The notes under the pieces were generated by a model. It was not told the DNA's origin, made no database searches, and was given only the letters and a program-made list of their open reading frames with translations. A stretch of 64,000 bases of DNA. Origin: Thalassococcus sp. S3. GTDB taxonomy: Bacteria > Pseudomonadota > Alphaproteobacteria > Rhodobacterales > Rhodobacteraceae. The position numbers and the translations under genes were made by a program. The stretch covers positions 1,612,001-1,676,000 of the forward strand of contig NZ_CP022303.1 in the NCBI RefSeq assembly GCF_004216475.1, in the 5' to 3' direction. Numbering within the stretch: position 1 is the first letter of the stretch; every line of letters starts with the position of its first letter. Shown one piece after another: positions 23,769 through 29,432 of this stretch.

Positions 23769-25184
23769 CTATCTGCGTCTCTTCTTCCGATTGGCCCAGA
23801 AGGGCGGGATGTCACCGGCCATGATGCAGCCATAGGGGTCGATGTAGTCCTCGATCTCGGCCAGATCGTAGGATTTGATCTGTGCCACGACGCTTCCTGC
23901 GTTCTTGTAGCTTGACGGCAACTCGGACGCATCGACCTGTCCTGCGTGAAAGCGGACATCGAGCCCCTTTGTCTCGGCCTTCAGCATCTGTTCCGGCGTG
24001 ACCGACCCCATCCGCCTGCGATGCTCGGACCGGGAGAAGTTGCGCCCCGCGCCATGCGGGCTGAAACCCAGACCGGAGGGGGCGTCCTTGCCCCGCACGA
24101 CCAAAACGGGTTCGGACATGTTGAGCGGGATCAGCGTGAGGCCCGTCGCATCAGCGGCATACCCGTCCCAGGCAGGGGTGGCCCCTTTGCCGTGGTAGAA
24201 AAGGTCGTCCCGCTTGAAGACGAAGTTGTGTTCGTTCCAGAACCGGTCGCCCACATCGCCCACCTTCGCGGCCTCCACCGTGGCCTGATGGATCGCGTTG
24301 TGGTTGGCCTTGGTCCATTTGCGGATGAGCTGCAGCGCCGCCCAATAGTCGCGACCTTCCTCGGTATCGGCGGGGATCCAGGCGTTCTGCTTCGGCGTTT
24401 CAGGCGACAGTTTCTTGCGGAACTTTTCGGCCACCGACATGCCGTGCTTGTAGAGCACGGCACCCGGACCGCGAGAGCCGTGATGGGTCACGATCGCCGT
24501 GCGGCCCGTCGCACGGGAGCGGCCGACGAAGAGGAAATGGTTCCCGTCGCCTTGCGTGCCCATATGCTCCTGCGCCATGCGCAACGCCTTGGGATTGTTG
24601 AGAAACGGATTTTCCCGGAACGCGTCGAGCAGCTTCAGTGAGGTGGTAAAGCGCTTGCCTTGAGGACGCCCACCGGGGCCGAAATGCGTAACCGACTGCG
24701 CGGCGTCCAGGACTGCCTTGGGGTCGGCGTTGCCCAGATCGGTGATCATCACCGAACAGCAGATATCGGCCGAATGCATGCCCGGATGGATCGCATTGCG
24801 CGCGGCGGCAATGCCACCTACGGGGATCGTGCCCACCGGACCTGCCGGGCAGGCATCGGGCATCACGGCACCGGCCTCGATGGTGGGCGTGCGCATCAAT
24901 TCGGTCATGGTCTGACGAACCTTGCCGATATTATCTTCCTCGTCGGGATGGCCGACGTCGATGTTTTCATGAAACGCGACAGCGCCGGCCTCCCGCAACG
25001 CAATTTGGGGTGGCTGTGGTGGGAAGGCCCGTTCCAGATCCTGCCGGATACGCCCAAGCCCAAAGCCCTCGGCCCGCATCTCATTGGCGCGCCGCAGCAG
25101 GTCGGGGTAGTTTTTACCCGGGCGATACCCCCATTCCTTGAGGTGGTCTCCGGTGACGGGATCAATGTTGTGGTCTTGTGTCAT
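23769..25184 (-). CDS. rtcB: RNA-splicing ligase RtcB
   Basis: A 471-residue RtcB, which joins RNA 2-prime,3-prime-cyclic phosphate or 3-prime phosphate ends to 5-prime hydroxyl ends using GTP and Mn. Visible signatures are HSADICCS, HHGSRGPGA, the guanylylated His in HGAGRNFSRSE (around residue 376) and the closing VDASELPSSYKNAG. The start MTQDHNIDPV at 25184 is chosen; the longer frame runs back into the last Y-RNA-like element. GGAGAGACGCG precedes this ATG and lies directly after the stem of that element. No rtcA or archease gene is nearby. It is the last gene of the rsr-Y RNA-tRNA-rtcB unit. Confidence 0.95.
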   Translation of the reverse strand: MTQDHNIDPVTGDHLKEWGYRPGKNYPDLLRRANEMRAEGFGLGRIRQDLERAFPPQPPQIALREAGAVAFHENIDVGHPDEEDNIGKVRQTMTELMRTPTIEAGAVMPDACPAGPVGTIPVGGIAAARNAIHPGMHSADICCSVMITDLGNADPKAVLDAAQSVTHFGPGGRPQGKRFTTSLKLLDAFRENPFLNNPKALRMAQEHMGTQGDGNHFLFVGRSRATGRTAIVTHHGSRGPGAVLYKHGMSVAEKFRKKLSPETPKQNAWIPADTEEGRDYWAALQLIRKWTKANHNAIHQATVEAAKVGDVGDRFWNEHNFVFKRDDLFYHGKGATPAWDGYAADATGLTLIPLNMSEPVLVVRGKDAPSGLGFSPHGAGRNFSRSEHRRRMGSVTPEQMLKAETKGLDVRFHAGQVDASELPSSYKNAGSVVAQIKSYDLAEIEDYIDPYGCIMAGDIPPFWANRKKRRR

Positions 25185-25196
25185 CGCGTCTCTCCG

Positions 25197-25335
25197 ATCC
25201 GGGGGACAAGGGTGCGCAGGATTTTTTTCCGCCACCGGGTTGCCCCAGGCTGGGGTTGAACCAGCACGGCATGGTTGCCCATGCCACCCGTTGCCGGGCG
25301 CGTCTGCCTGTAATCCTGCGGGCATTCCCCCGGAT
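25197..25335 (-). ncRNA. Y-RNA-like element 5 (rtcB leader)
   Basis: ATCCGGGGGA pairs perfectly with TCCCCCGGAT, and inside it GCAGGATT pairs with AATCCTGC; between them lie GGAATGCC and CTTG segments shared by all five elements. The interior has a T-arm (GCTGG-TTCAACC-CCAGC), an acceptor-like hairpin CTGGG-GCAA-CCCGG, and two more GCAA-capped hairpins (CCCG-GCAA-CGGG and GGCATGG-GCAA-CCATGCC). The tRNA-like part is thus closed by tetraloops. It ends 12 bases before the rtcB start codon, so its outer stem sits against the ribosome-binding site. Confidence 0.75.
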
Positions 25336-25354
25336 GCAATCCTTTCCTTTTATG

Positions 25355-25430
25355 TGGCTCGGCTGGCAGGGCTCGAACCTGCGACACCCTGATTAACAGT
25401 CAGGTGCTCTTCCAACTGAGCTACAGCCGA
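25355..25430 (-). tRNA. tRNA-Asn(GUU)
   Basis: A full cloverleaf: acceptor TCGGCTG with CAGCCGA, D arm GCTC-AGTTGGAA-GAGC, anticodon arm CCTGA-CTGTTAA-TCAGG with GTT, T arm GCAGG-TTCGAGC-CCTGC, and an encoded CCA end (25355-25357). All stems are perfect. It lies between Y-like elements 4 and 5. Confidence 0.93.
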
Positions 25431-25440
25431 ACATATCTGG

Positions 25441-25595
25441 CCCCGGCGACAAGGGGGAAGAAACGTACCCGGGGCCCGTCCCGCAAAAGGCCTTGGCCTC
25501 ATGCGTTTGCCGTCTGGACGCCTGCGAGGAGGGGAGTTGAACCCGCTCGGTGATCCCGGTGGTGGTGCATGTAGTTCCTTCGGCATTCGCCGGGG
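25441..25595 (-). ncRNA. Y-RNA-like element 4 (diverged)
   Basis: CCCCGGCGA pairs with TCGCCGGGG, and GAAGGAAC pairs with GTTTCTTC just inside; GGCGAATGCC fits the GNCGAANG motif of bacterial Y RNAs and CCTTGTCGCC is its partner strand. The interior is a decayed tRNA-like domain: a T-arm remnant (GCGGGTTCAACTCCCC), a CCTC with GAGG acceptor remnant and a GC-rich D-arm-like part. No clear anticodon is seen. Confidence 0.7.
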
Positions 25596-25643
25596 TGTCT
25601 CCTTTTTCGTGTCTGGCCTGATCCGGAGGTCGGGCCGGTTGCG

Positions 25644-25718
25644 TGGTGTGCCCGGTGGGGATCGAACCCACGACACGCCGCTTAAAAGGCGGCTGCTCTG
25701 CCACTGAGCTACGGGCGC
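25644..25718 (-). tRNA. tRNA-Lys(UUU)
   Basis: Acceptor GCGCCCG with CGGGCAC, D arm GCTC-AGTGGCA-GAGC, anticodon arm GCCGC-CTTTTAA-GCGGC with TTT, T arm GTGGG-TTCGATC-CCCAC, discriminator A and encoded CCA (25644-25646). The second acceptor pair is a C-A mismatch; all other pairs are good. It starts 4 bases (TTTT) after the stem of Y-like element 3. Confidence 0.88.
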
Positions 25719-25722
25719 AAAA

Positions 25723-25877
25723 GGCCCGGCGACAAGGCTTGGTGAAACATCTACCTGCTCTACCAGACTGAGCTACGCGTCCATATGATCCCAAAGGGAA
25801 TGTGGCGGACGCGACGGGATTTGAACCCGCGACCTGGGGATTAGGGGTCCTGTAGTTCCACCGGCATTCGCCGGGCC
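25723..25877 (-). ncRNA. Y-RNA-like element 3 with circularly permuted Arg(CCU)-like tRNA
   Basis: Outer stem GGCCCGGCGA with TCGCCGGGCC (10 bp), inner stem GGTGGAAC with GTTTCACC, and GGCGAATGCC as the Ro-type motif. Inside, the 3-prime half of a tRNA comes first (GGACCCCTAATCCCC, T arm GCGGG-TTCAAAT-CCCGT, acceptor CGCGTCC, then GCCA), then a 20-base linker with a small TCCC-TTT-GGGA hairpin, then the 5-prime half (acceptor GGACGCG, D arm GCTC-AGTCTGGTA-GAGC). The two acceptor strands pair perfectly over 7 bp. The Y stem opens the tRNA in the anticodon arm; joined, that arm would read GGGGA-CCCCTAA-TCCCC, with C rather than U at position 33. Confidence 0.82.
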
Positions 25878-25895
25878 AGTTCCTTTCGTTTCGGG

Positions 25896-26020
25896 TCTGG
25901 CGACAAGGGTCGATGAAACGAATGACTGAGCTACGCCCAATGGGCGGCGGGGATCGAACCCGCGGCCTCCGATCCGTTGGACCGGCGCTCTAACCTGTAG
26001 TTCCACCAGCATTCGCCAGA
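25896..26020 (-). ncRNA. Y-RNA-like element 2 with tRNA-like domain opened in the D loop
   Basis: Outer stem TCTGGCGA with TCGCCAGA, inner stem GGTGGAAC with GTTTCATC, motif GGCGAATG. The interior begins inside a D loop (GGTTAGAGC), continues through an intact anticodon arm CCGGT-CCAACGG-ATCGG, a T arm GCGGG-TTCGATC-CCCGC and acceptor strand CGCCCA, and joins after almost no linker to TTGGGCG and TAGCTCAGT. The joined D arm would be GCTC-AGTGGTTA-GAGC. The acceptor ends are effectively sealed, so it cannot yield a normal tRNA and is best read as a mimic. Confidence 0.82.
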
Positions 26021-26034
26021 ATGTGTTTCAAGGT

Positions 26035-26112
26035 GGGTCAGGCGGACAAGTCTGGTTGCGAGACATCTCACAGGAAATCAGACTGTAGTCCCGCAGGCAT
26101 TCCGCCTGACCC
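26035..26112 (-). ncRNA. Y-RNA-like element 1 (minimal, no tRNA-like domain)
   Basis: GGGTCAGGCGGA pairs perfectly with TCCGCCTGACCC, and TGCGGGAC pairs with GTCTCGCA inside. The asymmetric internal loop holds ATGCC and ACTTG as in the other copies. The interior is only about 23 bases with a small ACAG-CTGT pairing. It begins 4 bases after the rsr stop codon, so it must be released from the rsr mRNA. Confidence 0.75.
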
Positions 26113-26116
26113 GGCT

Positions 26117-27673
26117 TCATATGTCGATCTTCTCGATCTCGCCGACCCAGTGATCCGGGCCGGTTTGACCGGAGGCGAAGGCCGCGATCTGGTCAAAGAC
26201 CGCATCCGAGAACCCGCCGATATTCAGCACATCCTCGCGCGTCTGCGCCTGGGTGGTCCCGTAGGGCGCGATGTCGATGCAGACCAGTTTGGCCTTTGGG
26301 TTGCGACGCTTGATCGGTTCCCATTGCCGCATCATCGCCGTGCCCTGTCCCCCTTTGCGGGCATCCACCCAAGATTGGTTGTCGGACACGAAGACCACCA
26401 GATCCGGCGACCTGCCGCGACGGTTCAGCCACCTCAGCGGCGCGGAACAGTTCGTTCCGCCCCCGGCCAGTTCGGCCAGACGCTCCGCATTGGTCAGGAT
26501 CGTGTCGCGCGGCCTCGGACGCACGTTGCGCACGTCGAAGTCGAACGGCAGGACCTGGCACCCGCGGTTGACCCGCATGAAGGCCGCAGCGACCAGCGCT
26601 GCCACATCCACATGGCGCACCTTGGAGGTGGCACCCGGGCGGTAGCCCGTGATAGACCCCATCATGGAGCCCGACACGTCCGGGCACACCACGACCTGAC
26701 CGCCGATCCGCGGCACGTTCTGCACCGCGATCTCCATCGCGTCATGCAGCGCCTCCACGATCTCGTCCGGCATCTCGGGGGCCACGTTCTGCGTCGCTAC
26801 CATCAGCTGGTAGGGGAAGACGCGGGCTCGTGCGATGGCTTCGGGGTCCCGAAGCAGGCTGGCCACGTGATCCACGTTCTTCGTCACGCCGAACACGCCG
26901 TGGCGCAGGAACGTGTTGAGGTTCTGCCGCACCATCTGCCACGAGCCCTTGCGGGCGATCCGCGACCAATGCTGCGCCGACAGATCCAGTTGCGTGAGCA
27001 TCTGGAACGGCACCTCGGGCACCGGGCCTTTGCCGGTCTCCTTGAACGCGATCCAGTCCTGCAACGCTTGCGGCAGCAGGGCCATGTCGCAAGGCCGCCC
27101 GACGATCCAGGCAAAGAGCGCCTCCCGCGCCGCATCGGCGGGCTTGGGGTGCACCATCCGGATCACGTCCGCCAGGGACGGATCGTTGCCGATATTGGCC
27201 GCGATCAGCGCCCGGTCAGACGCGTCGTTCAGCCAGTTCTGCACCATCGCCTTGGGCGCAGATCCCAGAGACTTGCGCCCCGTCTGACCGGACCGGACGA
27301 CCTGCACGAAGGTGCGCAGCATCTTTCCGGTGTCGACCACACGGCCAAAGACCGCGCGGAAGAGCACCGGGTCACGCCGGGCCAGGATCGCCAGCAAAAC
27401 CGCCGGCATGTCCTTCATATGGCCCGATTGGCGCGCATAGATCGCGGTCTGCGCCAGAAAGCGCGGATCGACGGCCTCGGCGACTTCCAGAACATATTCA
27501 AGCTCGTCCTGGGCGCACTGATAGTACATGCCCCCGAACGTGCCGGTCACAGCGATCTGAGCCAGGACATGGGCATCGGAGTAAGCGTAGGCCGGCGCCG
27601 CCTCGGCGTTCCTTGCGGTGGCTTTCGGCAGCAACCGGCCTTTTATCGATGCAAACACGGATTTGTTTGCCAT
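26117..27673 (-). CDS. rsr: Ro60-type TROVE/vWA RNA-binding protein (Rsr)
   Basis: A 518-residue Ro protein: a HEAT-like TROVE ring over about residues 30-310, and a von Willebrand A domain from about 325 with the MIDAS motif DVSGSM. Ro proteins bind Y RNAs on the outside of the ring and misfolded or damaged RNA ends in its centre. The ATG at 27673 (MANKSVFASIKG) is chosen; the first 15 residues of the longer frame look non-coding. The gene is followed directly by five Y-RNA-like elements and by rtcB on the same strand, matching the Salmonella rsr-yrl-rtc theme, and is divergent from rtcR. Confidence 0.93.
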   Translation of the reverse strand: MANKSVFASIKGRLLPKATARNAEAAPAYAYSDAHVLAQIAVTGTFGGMYYQCAQDELEYVLEVAEAVDPRFLAQTAIYARQSGHMKDMPAVLLAILARRDPVLFRAVFGRVVDTGKMLRTFVQVVRSGQTGRKSLGSAPKAMVQNWLNDASDRALIAANIGNDPSLADVIRMVHPKPADAAREALFAWIVGRPCDMALLPQALQDWIAFKETGKGPVPEVPFQMLTQLDLSAQHWSRIARKGSWQMVRQNLNTFLRHGVFGVTKNVDHVASLLRDPEAIARARVFPYQLMVATQNVAPEMPDEIVEALHDAMEIAVQNVPRIGGQVVVCPDVSGSMMGSITGYRPGATSKVRHVDVAALVAAAFMRVNRGCQVLPFDFDVRNVRPRPRDTILTNAERLAELAGGGTNCSAPLRWLNRRGRSPDLVVFVSDNQSWVDARKGGQGTAMMRQWEPIKRRNPKAKLVCIDIAPYGTTQAQTREDVLNIGGFSDAVFDQIAAFASGQTGPDHWVGEIEKIDI

Positions 27674-27737
27674 TTCTCTCGTCCTTCTGTGTTGACGAGG
27701 ATGTTTTGACACGGACAACGGGCAGCGCCGAAGAAAA

Positions 27738-27751
27738 AAGAGAATTCTCTT
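27738..27751. promoter_or_regulatory. 14-bp perfect palindrome upstream of rsr
   Basis: AAGAGAATTCTCTT lies 65 bases upstream of the rsr start. It could be an operator or part of the leader; no known factor is assigned. Confidence 0.4.
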
Positions 27752-27769
27752 AAGATATTGATTTAAAAA

Positions 27770-27834
27770 GGATAATTCGTTTCTTGCGCCAAAGGGCGTC
27801 CTGAAATACTATCCGTGGTTATACGAAATTATCC
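27770..27834. promoter_or_regulatory. Inverted repeat in the rtcR-rsr divergent promoter region
   Basis: GGATAATTCGT (27770-27780) and ACGAAATTATCC (27823-27834) are inverted copies with one inserted base. A second inverted repeat TATCCA-TT-TGGATA lies at 27830-27843, over the 5-prime-most rtcR ATG. These are candidate RtcR binding sites. Confidence 0.45.
27788..27801 (-). promoter_or_regulatory. Candidate sigma-54 promoter for rsr-Y RNA-rtcB
   Basis: On the minus strand GGACGCCCTTTGGC has the GG-N10-GC spacing of a sigma-54 promoter, inside the RtcR-controlled region. The match to the full consensus is only partial. The transcript would start about 100 bases before rsr. Confidence 0.35.
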
Positions 27835-27848
27835 ATTTGGATATCACT

Positions 27849-29432
27849 ATGCGAAATGTGGTTCTGGGGTTTCTTGGAACGCAACTCGATGCCGGGAAAA
27901 AGCGGCGTTGGAAGCCAACAATCAGCCTGGTGGAGCATGCCGGATTCGATGTTGACCGGCTGGAAATCCTCTATGACCGCAAGTTTCATCGCCTCGCGTG
28001 TCAGGTGCGCGATCAGGTGCAGGCGACCTCTCCCGATACCGAGGTGATGTTGCGCAATCTCGACCTGACCGACCCTTGGGATTTTCAGGAGGTCTATGGG
28101 AAGCTCTTCGATTTCGCGCGGGCCTATGGTTTCGATGAGGATCGAGAACGCTATCACGTCCATCTGACCACGGGCACGCATGTGGCGCAGATCTGCTGGT
28201 TCCTGCTGACCGAAAGCCGCCACGTTCCGGCGCGGCTGATCCAGACCGGGCCACCGGGCGCGCAGGATGAGATGGCCAAGTTTGACATGATCGACCTGGA
28301 TCTGAGCCGCTACAATGCCTTGCAGCAGCGGTTTGATCAGTTGTCCCGCGAATATAGCGATCAGTTGAAGGGCGGGATCGACACCAAGAGTGTCGCCTAT
28401 AACGAGGTGATTGGCCGTATCGAACTGGTGGCGAGCAATTCGGACGCGCCGATCCTGCTTTTGGGAGAGACGGGTACAGGCAAGACCGAGTTGGCCGAGC
28501 GGATCTACAACCTCAAGCTTGAGCGGCGGCGCGTTAAGGGGCGGCTTGTCCATGTGAACTGCGCGACCCTGAATGGATCGGATGCGCTGGCCACTCTTTT
28601 TGGCCAAAGGCGCAGCTATCTTGGCCACGCCGGATCAGAGCGTGGAGGTTTGTTGCGCGAGGCCGATGGCGGCGTGCTTTTTCTGGATGAGGTGGATGAG
28701 CTGGGCCTGGGCGCGCAATCGGTTCTGCTGCATGCGATCGAGACGGGGCGGTTCTATCCTCTTGGATCGGACCACGAGATCACGAGCCGGTTTCATATCA
28801 TCGCGGGTGCCAACAGGGACCTCCGCCAGCTCAGCGCCGAGGGGGCCTTTCGTCCCGACTTGCTGGCACGTCTCAACATGTGGCGTTTCACCTTGCCATC
28901 GCTCAAGGATCGGCGGGAGGATGTCGAGGTCAACCTTGTCCATGAACTGGCGCGCGCCGAACGCGAATTGGGGATCCAGGTCGGATTTAATGCCGATGCC
29001 CGCGACCACTATCTGAGGTTTGCGACCGACCCGGCGACGACATGGCCGGGAAACTTCCGGGATTTCAGCGCTTCGATCCGACGGCTTTGCACACTTGCGC
29101 CGCGCGGGCGCATCACCCGCGCGATGGTCACCGCAGAAATCGAGATGCTGTTACGTGATTGGAACAGCAGCACGTCGAACACGGACCTGCGATTGGTCAG
29201 AGACGTTCTAGGAGACGAGACGGATGAGGTTGATCCCTTCGATCTGGTGCAATTGGCCGAGGTCATTCGCACCTGTCGCAAAGCGTCGAGCCTGAGCGCT
29301 GCGGGCCGAACGCTTTTTTCGGCCTCGCGCAGCCGACGTAAAGTGCAAAACGATGCGGATCGGTTGCGGAAGTATCTGCAGCGCTACGGGCTGGACTGGG
29401 ACATGGTTACCCGACAGCAGCGGCATTCCTAG
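27849..29432 (+). CDS. rtcR: Sigma-54-dependent regulator RtcR
   Basis: A 527-residue activator. Residues 1-180 form the CARF-type sensor of RtcR (VVLGFLGTQLDAGKKRRW at the start), which senses RNA fragments or cyclic-phosphate-ended RNA. The AAA+ domain has Walker A GETGTGKTE near 205 and Walker B VLFLDEVDE near 278. The C-terminus carries a helix-turn-helix-like segment. The usual GAFTGA loop that touches sigma-54 is not seen; the aligned place (near 256) reads SYLGHA. The ATG at 27849 gives the usual RtcR N-terminus; an ATG at 27837 is possible. It is divergent from rsr. Confidence 0.92.
   Translation: MRNVVLGFLGTQLDAGKKRRWKPTISLVEHAGFDVDRLEILYDRKFHRLACQVRDQVQATSPDTEVMLRNLDLTDPWDFQEVYGKLFDFARAYGFDEDRERYHVHLTTGTHVAQICWFLLTESRHVPARLIQTGPPGAQDEMAKFDMIDLDLSRYNALQQRFDQLSREYSDQLKGGIDTKSVAYNEVIGRIELVASNSDAPILLLGETGTGKTELAERIYNLKLERRRVKGRLVHVNCATLNGSDALATLFGQRRSYLGHAGSERGGLLREADGGVLFLDEVDELGLGAQSVLLHAIETGRFYPLGSDHEITSRFHIIAGANRDLRQLSAEGAFRPDLLARLNMWRFTLPSLKDRREDVEVNLVHELARAERELGIQVGFNADARDHYLRFATDPATTWPGNFRDFSASIRRLCTLAPRGRITRAMVTAEIEMLLRDWNSSTSNTDLRLVRDVLGDETDEVDPFDLVQLAEVIRTCRKASSLSAAGRTLFSASRSRRKVQNDADRLRKYLQRYGLDWDMVTRQQRHS

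Follow-up and report, generated by a model that had tools for sequence, protein, structure and literature searches.

The interval between rsr, the gene of a Ro60-related protein, and the RNA ligase gene rtcB of Thalassococcus sp. S3 was analysed within a 64,000-nucleotide (nt) stretch of contig NZ_CP022303.1 (positions 1,612,001 to 1,676,000, forward strand), hereafter the window, whose own numbering is used throughout. The minus strand carries, one after the other, rsr, the elements Y1–Y3, a transfer RNA gene (tRNA-Lys), Y4, tRNA-Asn, Y5 and rtcB; rtcR is divergent. The five Y elements are likely Y RNAs sharing one Ro-type stem, and up to three of them appear, judging by sequence, to carry a tRNA whose halves are swapped. 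The features are as follows, with scores from the stem detector described below.

26117..27673, minus strand: rsr, Ro60-related, with Pfam TROVE and Ro60 vWA domains
26037..26110 (core 26107-26041), minus strand: Y1, short hairpin with a Ro-type stem and a 25-nt interior; detector score 20.4
25894..26022 (core 26019-25898), minus strand: Y2, Ro-type stem around a tRNA-like module with a D-loop break
25723..25877 (core 25874-25727), minus strand: Y3, Ro-type stem around a complete tRNA fold permuted at 28/29
25644..25718, minus strand: tRNA-Lys(UUU), diverged from the other tRNA-Lys of the genome and starting 4 nt after the Y3 stem
25440..25596 (core 25593-25444), minus strand: Y4, Ro-type stem with a 111-nt module; detector score 20.3
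25355..25430, minus strand: tRNA-Asn(GUU), of an operon-specific lineage
25197..25335 (core 25332-25201), minus strand: Y5, Ro-type stem around a tRNA-Leu-like module with a D-loop break; detector score 20.9
23769..25184, minus strand: rtcB RNA ligase (Pfam), its ATG 17 nt past the end of the Y5 core
27849..29432, plus strand: rtcR, divergent activator with Pfam RtcR and sigma-54 interaction AAA+ domains

A preliminary description of this DNA had proposed five Y-RNA-like elements between rsr and rtcB, and all five are present on the minus strand of the gap, with detector scores of 19.9-20.9. The detector's score combines the outer and inner stems with AATGC, TAC and CTTG, and stem pairing is required for selection. 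Elsewhere in the window no score exceeded 15.7. In first-order Markov sequence (512 kb, one strand), a single match fell in the 17-18 bin and none lay above it. Each element has the outer stem, AATGC facing CTTGTC, the second stem and TAC just inside; the inner stem given earlier as GGAAC/GTTTC holds for Y2-Y4 but reads GGGAC/GTCTC in Y1 and GCAGGAT/ATCCTGC in Y5. The Ro-binding stem of YrlA, GAATGC facing CTTGTC, was found in 5/5 and covaries in relatives. The array adjoins the Rsr/Ro60 gene (rsr ends at 26117), the location of bacterial Y RNAs.

Against the Rfam YrlA model (RF02553, cut-off 69 bits), only Y3 passed, with 79.2 bits; Y2 (36.1) and Y4 (21.1) fell below, and Y1 and Y5 gave no match at E up to 10. 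Y1, Y2, Y4 and Y5 are called Y-RNA-like here, not YrlA, because they miss this gathering score. At permissive thresholds, Rfam returned only weak below-cut-off matches in the window beyond YrlA and tRNA. One candidate, permuted transfer-messenger RNA (tmRNA; RF04321), which to our knowledge has no Ro stem, was rejected with 19 bits at 25774-25830 versus a gathering score of 47. In a covariance-model search, model R1, built from 18 relatives and Y3, recovered Y2 (57.5 bits), Y4 (47.3) and Y5 (36.1), missed Y1, and gave nothing above 12.2 bits elsewhere in the window.

Relatives were the best 80 of at least 325 rsr relatives found, a set that leans to near kin and shares some species with the family sample mentioned below. 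For covariation, cores were picked from these 80 rsr loci and the window by two motifs alone, pairing not being required; 75 regions contributed 238 distinct cores. Outer pairs k2-6 were paired in 85.3% of cases, versus 53.4% (maximum 57.1%) with shuffled partners, and every position k2-6 showed at least three Watson-Crick pair types. Slid registers of the outer stem paired less, mostly 2%-75%. The exceptions were register -1 at k1 (98%) and register -3, a less clean control in which the repetitive, G+C-rich outer stem pairs at 75-98% over k1-5 and 75-83% at k2-5. For the inner stem, a mean of 6.57 of 7 positions paired versus 5.57 after shuffling (each the best of 18 registers). The YrlA match, the detector, the covariation and the operon order support well the Y-RNA identity of the shared stem and its link to Rsr and RtcB.

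Within the Ro stem, many elements are laid out as TACA, nt 29-31, a 7-nt loop, nt 39-43, a variable loop, a T arm, the acceptor 3' strand (with N-CCA in some), a linker, the acceptor 5' strand, a D arm and nt 26-28, after which the Ro stem closes. Many modules would accordingly read as whole tRNAs in circular permutation, with the Ro-type stem placed where the tRNA is broken, either at 28/29 in the anticodon stem or in the D-loop. This content, absent from the preliminary description, is the more surprising part of the array and points to a new variant of Y RNA with a putative function.

Y3 provides the clearest case, with a 7-base-pair (bp) acceptor (GGACGCG/CGCGTCC), a coded GCCA end, a 20-nt linker and an anticodon loop CCCCTAA with C33. 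After rejoining of its halves, ARAGORN called tRNA-Arg(cct), the native order being uncalled; as in a permuted tRNA gene, the 3' half precedes the 5' half and the rejoined halves form a cloverleaf. The Y3 circle scored 75 against the genome's own tRNA-Arg (linear 54; shuffles 36.7 ± 4.2, maximum 50). In Y2, the acceptor is closed by ATT and the 5-bp anticodon arm is CCGGT/CCAACGG/ATCGG; the circularised interior scored 68.5 against the own tRNA-Trp (linear 62.0; shuffles 37.5 ± 3.3, maximum 44.5). Y5 has a long variable arm, with its anticodon and acceptor ends each closed by a short loop, and its relatives keep the tRNA-Leu marks GGTAGACGC...GTGC...GGTTCAA...GGTGGCGGAA together with the long variable arm and the D-loop break. 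BLAST of Y5 against its own genome found no second copy (next best E 0.36).

The D/T/acceptor module that characterizes YrlA is thus clear in Y3, visible by alignment in Y2 and by relatives in Y5, and lacking in Y1. Y1, the first element after rsr, has no tRNA module and a fold of -32.7 kcal/mol; the first element is shorter than 90 nt in 22 of the 34 loci L099-L132. The Y4 module contains one T-arm-like hairpin (GGGTTCAACTCCCC), and its score of 49 against the own tRNAs is weak to marginal (shuffle mean 35.6, maximum 46.5).

Permutation across the element set was assessed by circularising every interior of 60 nt or more in 81 different trimmings and requiring an ARAGORN tRNA that spanned the junction. 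Such a tRNA was found in 105 of 184 long interiors; first-order resampling, reverse complements and native order each yielded 0/184. A coded N-CCA directly follows the acceptor strand in 27 of 81 elements that have an acceptor and a D arm and whose acceptor strands are separated by 4 nt or more (27/140 when counted with the acceptor alone). When 26 of these CCA-type elements were rejoined by a fixed rule, 24 were called, compared with none in native order. Halves swapped between CCA-type elements were still called in 10-16 of 24-26 cases, and the stems are therefore partly shared between lineages. The 26 elements have 18 distinct acceptor strands and linkers of 1-59 nt, and 19 of them have a T before G1, where RNase P is predicted to cut. 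A G3.U70 alanine signature was considered for these acceptors and dropped, as it was not constant among those compared by eye.

Alignment A2, comprising 19 of the 27 CCA-type elements, had 98.3% of its cells paired, versus 84.2% in shuffles and 39.3-46.1% in slid registers. Its six helices were 94.7-100% paired, with 84 two-sided changes versus 20.6 in shuffles, and 7/7 pairs of the acceptor helix had changed on both sides. If the array were a group of decaying tRNA pseudogenes that match the motifs by chance, the clear tRNA ancestry of these elements would follow, but this is hardly credible given this pairing and its two-sided changes, the covariation of the stems across the 238 distinct cores and the same position after rsr that the elements hold in many genera.

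The T arm, acceptor and D arm could be parsed in 89 elements. Since the fixed rule misplaces the cut in elements with a shifted arm or with the A of TACA as nt 29, three variable-loop lengths were used in a re-parse. A full anticodon stem (2+3 bp) with a 7-nt loop was present in 40 of the 52 elements with room for one (shuffles 2.6-2.7%). Within these 40 arms, U33 occurred in 34 and C33 in six (Y3 included), A34 in nine, one of them ACG, and the anticodons were many and different. The tertiary pair 15-48, which the parse does not use, was G-C or A-U in 81/89 elements (50.6 expected; 0/10,000 permutations), and the D-loop GG was present in 80/89. Both the anticodon and the 15-48 tests are independent of the detector's stem-pairing requirement. 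Because A34 and C33 occur and some classes have no anticodon arm, shape mimicry is favoured over decoding.

Full arms with U33 and varied anticodons would also suit Rsr-bound baits that occupy or absorb the anticodon nucleases whose damage the operon answers, and some Rsr-carrying viral contigs mix Y elements with tRNA clusters. The RtcR operon is induced by tRNA cleavage and its fragments, and a role as nuclease competitor has been suggested for YrlA (PMC7790460); fragments of the Salmonella YrlA, however, were not detected in that study. Such a bait function is an unlikely explanation of the array, the anticodon loop not being a common feature: 37/89 elements have no room for the arm, and short closed loops take its place in the Leu-like class.

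A D-loop break was recognized in 18/287 interiors, compared with an average of 0.1 in resampled ones. By eye, L125_Y2 and L176_Y2 were removed, their D-arm halves being unmatched, and L102_Y3 was added from its family, leaving 17 that include Y2 and Y5, both with closed acceptors. The sequences thus point to at least two break points, one in the anticodon stem at 28/29 and one in the D-loop.

These closed acceptors bear on another account, in which CCA-type elements would be tRNA precursors: the Ro stem would be excised, RtcB would join nt 28 and 29, and RNase P together with the 3' enzymes would take off the linker to leave a working tRNA. The complete tRNA parts, the 7-bp acceptor, the coded CCA, the T before G in 19/26 and the adjoining ligase gene all agree with it. 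We nevertheless judge it very improbable in view of the acceptors of Y2 and Y5, A34 in 9/40 arms (although the one ACG is a normal bacterial anticodon) and C33 in 6/40, including Y3; nor are we aware of a bacterial endonuclease that would act on a junction of this kind.

In the preliminary description, known operons were said to carry one or two such RNAs and five in tandem with tRNAs to be undescribed; among the relatives, multi-element arrays are usual. At an element threshold of score ≥17.5, the 75 of 80 loci with at least 1 kb downstream held no element in 3 cases, one in 8, two in 8, three in 18, four in 16, five in 11, six in 6 and seven in 5, that is, at least three in 56/75 and at least five in 22/75. 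ARAGORN tRNAs lie within 1700 nt downstream in 25/80 loci. A multi-element array is ordinary for this operon type. Across the 80 loci, all 282 elements at this threshold lie 0-1700 nt downstream of rsr and none upstream, with one on the opposite strand.

This kind of Rsr is rare in itself, occurring in 15/295 genomes of the family sample and 9/385 of the class sample (two of the nine weak). In a motif listing, each of the 15 family genomes has between two and six 5' cores following rsr. The Burkholderiales and Undibacterium arrays of L168 and L174 are rich in short hairpin elements of 54-67 nt, some scoring <18. That such arrays have escaped earlier description is not established; a literature search covering titles and the beginnings of abstracts among the best matches returned no report of them or of permuted tRNAs in Y RNAs.

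The relatives' loci contain 46 tRNAs, chiefly Asn, Gln, Pro and Lys, distributed over 25/80 loci. Every one of these 25 has a Y element, while 51/80 loci have Y elements without a tRNA and 4/80 have neither; the tRNAs are therefore optional and the Y elements nearly constant. The gap from Y core to tRNA is 4-13 nt in 27/34 cases, and Y-to-Y gaps are ≤13 nt in 23/176. RNase P acting at a neighbouring tRNA might thereby free the 3' end of a Y RNA. The short gaps would also fit a locus in which the two intact tRNAs are the point, as stress-supplied replacements or processing marks, and the Y elements are bystanders. The operon tRNA-Asn and tRNA-Lys are indeed extra, divergent isodecoders, and a stress-induced tRNA operon of Anabaena is co-repressed with rtcB (PMC10272220). 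We consider this quite improbable, as 51/80 loci have only Y elements, four have neither and 0/25 tRNA-bearing loci lack a Y.

The operon tRNA-Asn is 87-92% identical to the tRNA-Asn of four relatives' rsr operons and 79% to the genome's other tRNA-Asn. Over nt 8-65 it is 88% identical to the genome's tRNA-Lys, and since this exceeds the 79% to the other tRNA-Asn, it may descend from tRNA-Lys. The operon tRNA-Lys has an acceptor mismatch, C2.A71, which is kept in the seven other operon tRNA-Lys compared. Nuclease-resistant phage tRNAs are known to differ in the anticodon loop; comparison by eye of the operon and other tRNA-Asn and tRNA-Lys found no anticodon-loop differences, the loops being identical. 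Two Caulobacterales rsr operons end in tRNAs after the Y elements, five in L159 and seven in L148 (Gln, Arg, Leu, His, Asn, Pro and Tyr).

Several observations weigh against permuted tRNAs, made under RtcR control, as a general account of these arrays. In the window, this account does not cover Y4, Y2 resembles its own tRNAs nearly equally in linear order (62.0 versus 68.5) and the score of Y5 against its own tRNAs, 40, is not significant alone (shuffles 34.2 ± 4.4, maximum 44.5). ARAGORN called only Y3 among the window interiors; Y2 and Y5, both uncalled, rest on features and relatives. In the wider set, 103/287 elements carry no tRNA because their interiors are <60 nt, 79/184 long interiors were uncalled, the first call had an odd anticodon loop in 45 of the 105 called circles, and the 37 parsed elements without room for an anticodon arm belong here as well. 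The constancy of CCA in A2 reflects selection, as A2 was picked for CCA; tRNA-to-Y gaps, like Y-to-tRNA gaps, are short in 12/30; and the related sequences are not independent, the 80 loci being the best of at least 325. A search for sigma-54 sites before rsr gave scores ≥13 in 31/79 loci versus 1/1580 shuffles, with no strong -24/-12 promoter among L099-L132 or in the window, where region 27674-27848 before rsr held no convincing -24/-12 site (score 10, reached by one third of shuffles). Without a strong -24/-12 site, sigma-54 control by RtcR is doubtful here.

An origin of the modules is suggested by the inner part of R1, which on its own matches many places in rsr-negative genomes. In 21/22 such loci (L211-L232), the match spans the spacer between two same-strand tRNA genes (tRNA-Asp or tRNA-Gly pairs); the sequence of the remaining locus, L211, is incomplete. 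The tandem tRNA-Asp of the own genome is a further match. This is the geometry expected if the Ro stem, as is probable, took in the inner portion of two neighbouring tRNAs, namely the 3' half of one, the spacer and the 5' half of the next. Permuted tRNA genes have been described as arising when a tRNA gene is duplicated in tandem and the outer parts are then lost (PMC3978253).

The specificity of R1 is poor at low scores, with some match at E up to 0.001 in 104/149 genomes. Full-length matches of ≥97 bits were found in all six rsr-positive genomes among the 149, three of which (the own genome, G082 and G116) had supplied sequences to R1. Two rsr-negative loci with R1 scores of 45-59 bits, L209 and L210, were rejected: they have no Ro stem at a detector score of 16 and consist of adjacent tRNA or tRNA-like pairs. 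In L210 (45.5 bits), a tRNA-like gene and tRNA-Met lie near a gene that by eye resembles slipin/Band-7, and the tRNA-like gene is possibly the Band-7-linked tRNA-like RNA of Burroughs and Aravind.

Rsr relatives are also encoded in 45 IMG/VR stretches (some near-duplicates), of which 14 have detectable Y elements, 60 in total, and 31 have none. Among the long interiors of these viral elements, 17/30 read as circular tRNAs, the resampling, reverse-complement and native-order controls covering the earlier set of 184. Unlike in bacteria, Y elements precede rsr in several viral stretches. The contigs L261, L233, L236, L259 and L255 have 6-9 Y elements each, and the eight of L261 are scattered through a cluster of 34 tRNAs called by ARAGORN, of which one overlaps with a Y. 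The swapped tRNA halves in the array suggest that the use of tRNAs as handles for a Ro60-like protein arose repeatedly, in bacteria and in their viruses.

On balance, we favour reading the array as a set of Rsr RNAs with one Ro-docking stem and different modules, three of the five being permuted tRNAs, within a mechanism linked to RtcR and RtcB. From the stems, the permuted tRNA folds and the operon order, all read directly from the sequence, we infer the following course of transcription, processing, binding and function. Cleavage of tRNA would lead RtcR to turn on rsr, the Y elements, the tRNAs and rtcB as a single transcript, and RNase P and 3'-end enzymes would cut at the embedded tRNAs, helping to release the Y RNAs. 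Each Y RNA would dock on the Rsr ring through its stem and present a tRNA-shaped handle. The handle would bring the ring to tRNA-handling enzymes, of which PNPase is a known partner and RtcB or tRNA-modifying enzymes are guesses, so that capture and decay or repair would be aimed at broken tRNA. The short Y1 might occupy or gate the Rsr ring without a handle.

CCA-type elements such as Y3 are additionally expected to be opened by RNase P into two pieces with a free CCA end. In a further-reaching proposal, which we regard as possible but somewhat doubtful, RNase P and the 3'-end enzymes would leave a two-piece RNA whose tRNA body, with its coded CCA end, is tied to the Ro ring at the anticodon stem, and several Y classes would have been captured independently from different tRNAs. 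If this is true, enzymes acting on tRNA could charge or bind such a Y RNA, which would make it a 'tmRNA of the Ro system'.

Mimicry of tRNA is an established property of bacterial Y RNAs. If the favoured reading is true, the mimicry would have originated by capture from tandem tRNAs, and its reason, which can be tested, would be that the RNAs are handled like tRNA. The Ro60 system would then be linked directly to the damage and repair of tRNA, perhaps also to conflict with phages, and a bacterial case of circularly permuted tRNA would be added. The closest known RNA is YrlA (RF02553; Salmonella rsr-yrlBA-rtcBA), which is alike in the Ro-binding stem, the position between rsr and rtcB, the T arm before the D arm and the tRNA mimicry. 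Its Rfam consensus has a T arm, an acceptor and a D arm without an anticodon arm, whereas many elements described here have a full anticodon arm. Further differences from YrlA are the arrays of up to seven scored elements, the coded CCA in many, the D-loop break classes, the short members without a tRNA module and the intact tRNAs within the array. For one YrlA, features related to RNase P or CCA may have been mentioned by Chen 2014. In Salmonella, the operon rsr-yrlBA-rtcBA encodes the two Y RNAs YrlA and YrlB (PMC9879122); YrlA is described as mimicking tRNA, as carrying DusA/TruB sites and as part of an Rsr-Y-PNPase complex (PMC8394870).

Circularly permuted tRNA genes of algae such as C. 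merolae and of T. pendens likewise have the 3' half first, and their known junctions include the D-loop (20/21) and the anticodon loop (37/38) (PMC3978253). Unlike in those genes, the junction here is a Ro-type stem and not a re-ligated splice junction, many anticodons look non-decoding, and the hosts are bacteria and viral contigs. The two-piece permuted tmRNA (RF04321) is also encoded by a permuted bacterial gene, with a break that stays unligated and an RNA that works in two pieces (PMC3978253). The stress-induced trn operon of Anabaena resembles the present one in that extra tRNAs are controlled together with rtcB; it differs in having 26 tRNAs on a plasmid, and 'Rsr' is absent from the main text of the paper (PMC10272220).

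Among the flanking genes, the rsr start was set at a conserved ATG, M16 being the first invariant residue, while the open frame extends to 27718; the product has a profile match to the Rsr structure 2nvo (E 2.7e-26). The rtcR gene likely starts with the ATG at 27849, in an open frame from 27837. RtcB is encoded downstream in 65/80 of the relatives' loci and RtcR divergently in 76/80, several loci being incomplete. At the GAFTGA position the window RtcR has SYLGHA; of four relatives compared, L099, L113 and L120 also lack the motif and L128 retains GAFSGA. RtcR may act without sigma-54 in the window operon. Among 32 measurable relatives, 19 have a distance of 9-31 nt between the end of the last Y element and the rtcB start codon. 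The distance is 17 nt in the window, where Rsr binding at this element (25184-25201, beside the likely ribosome site) could affect rtcB translation.

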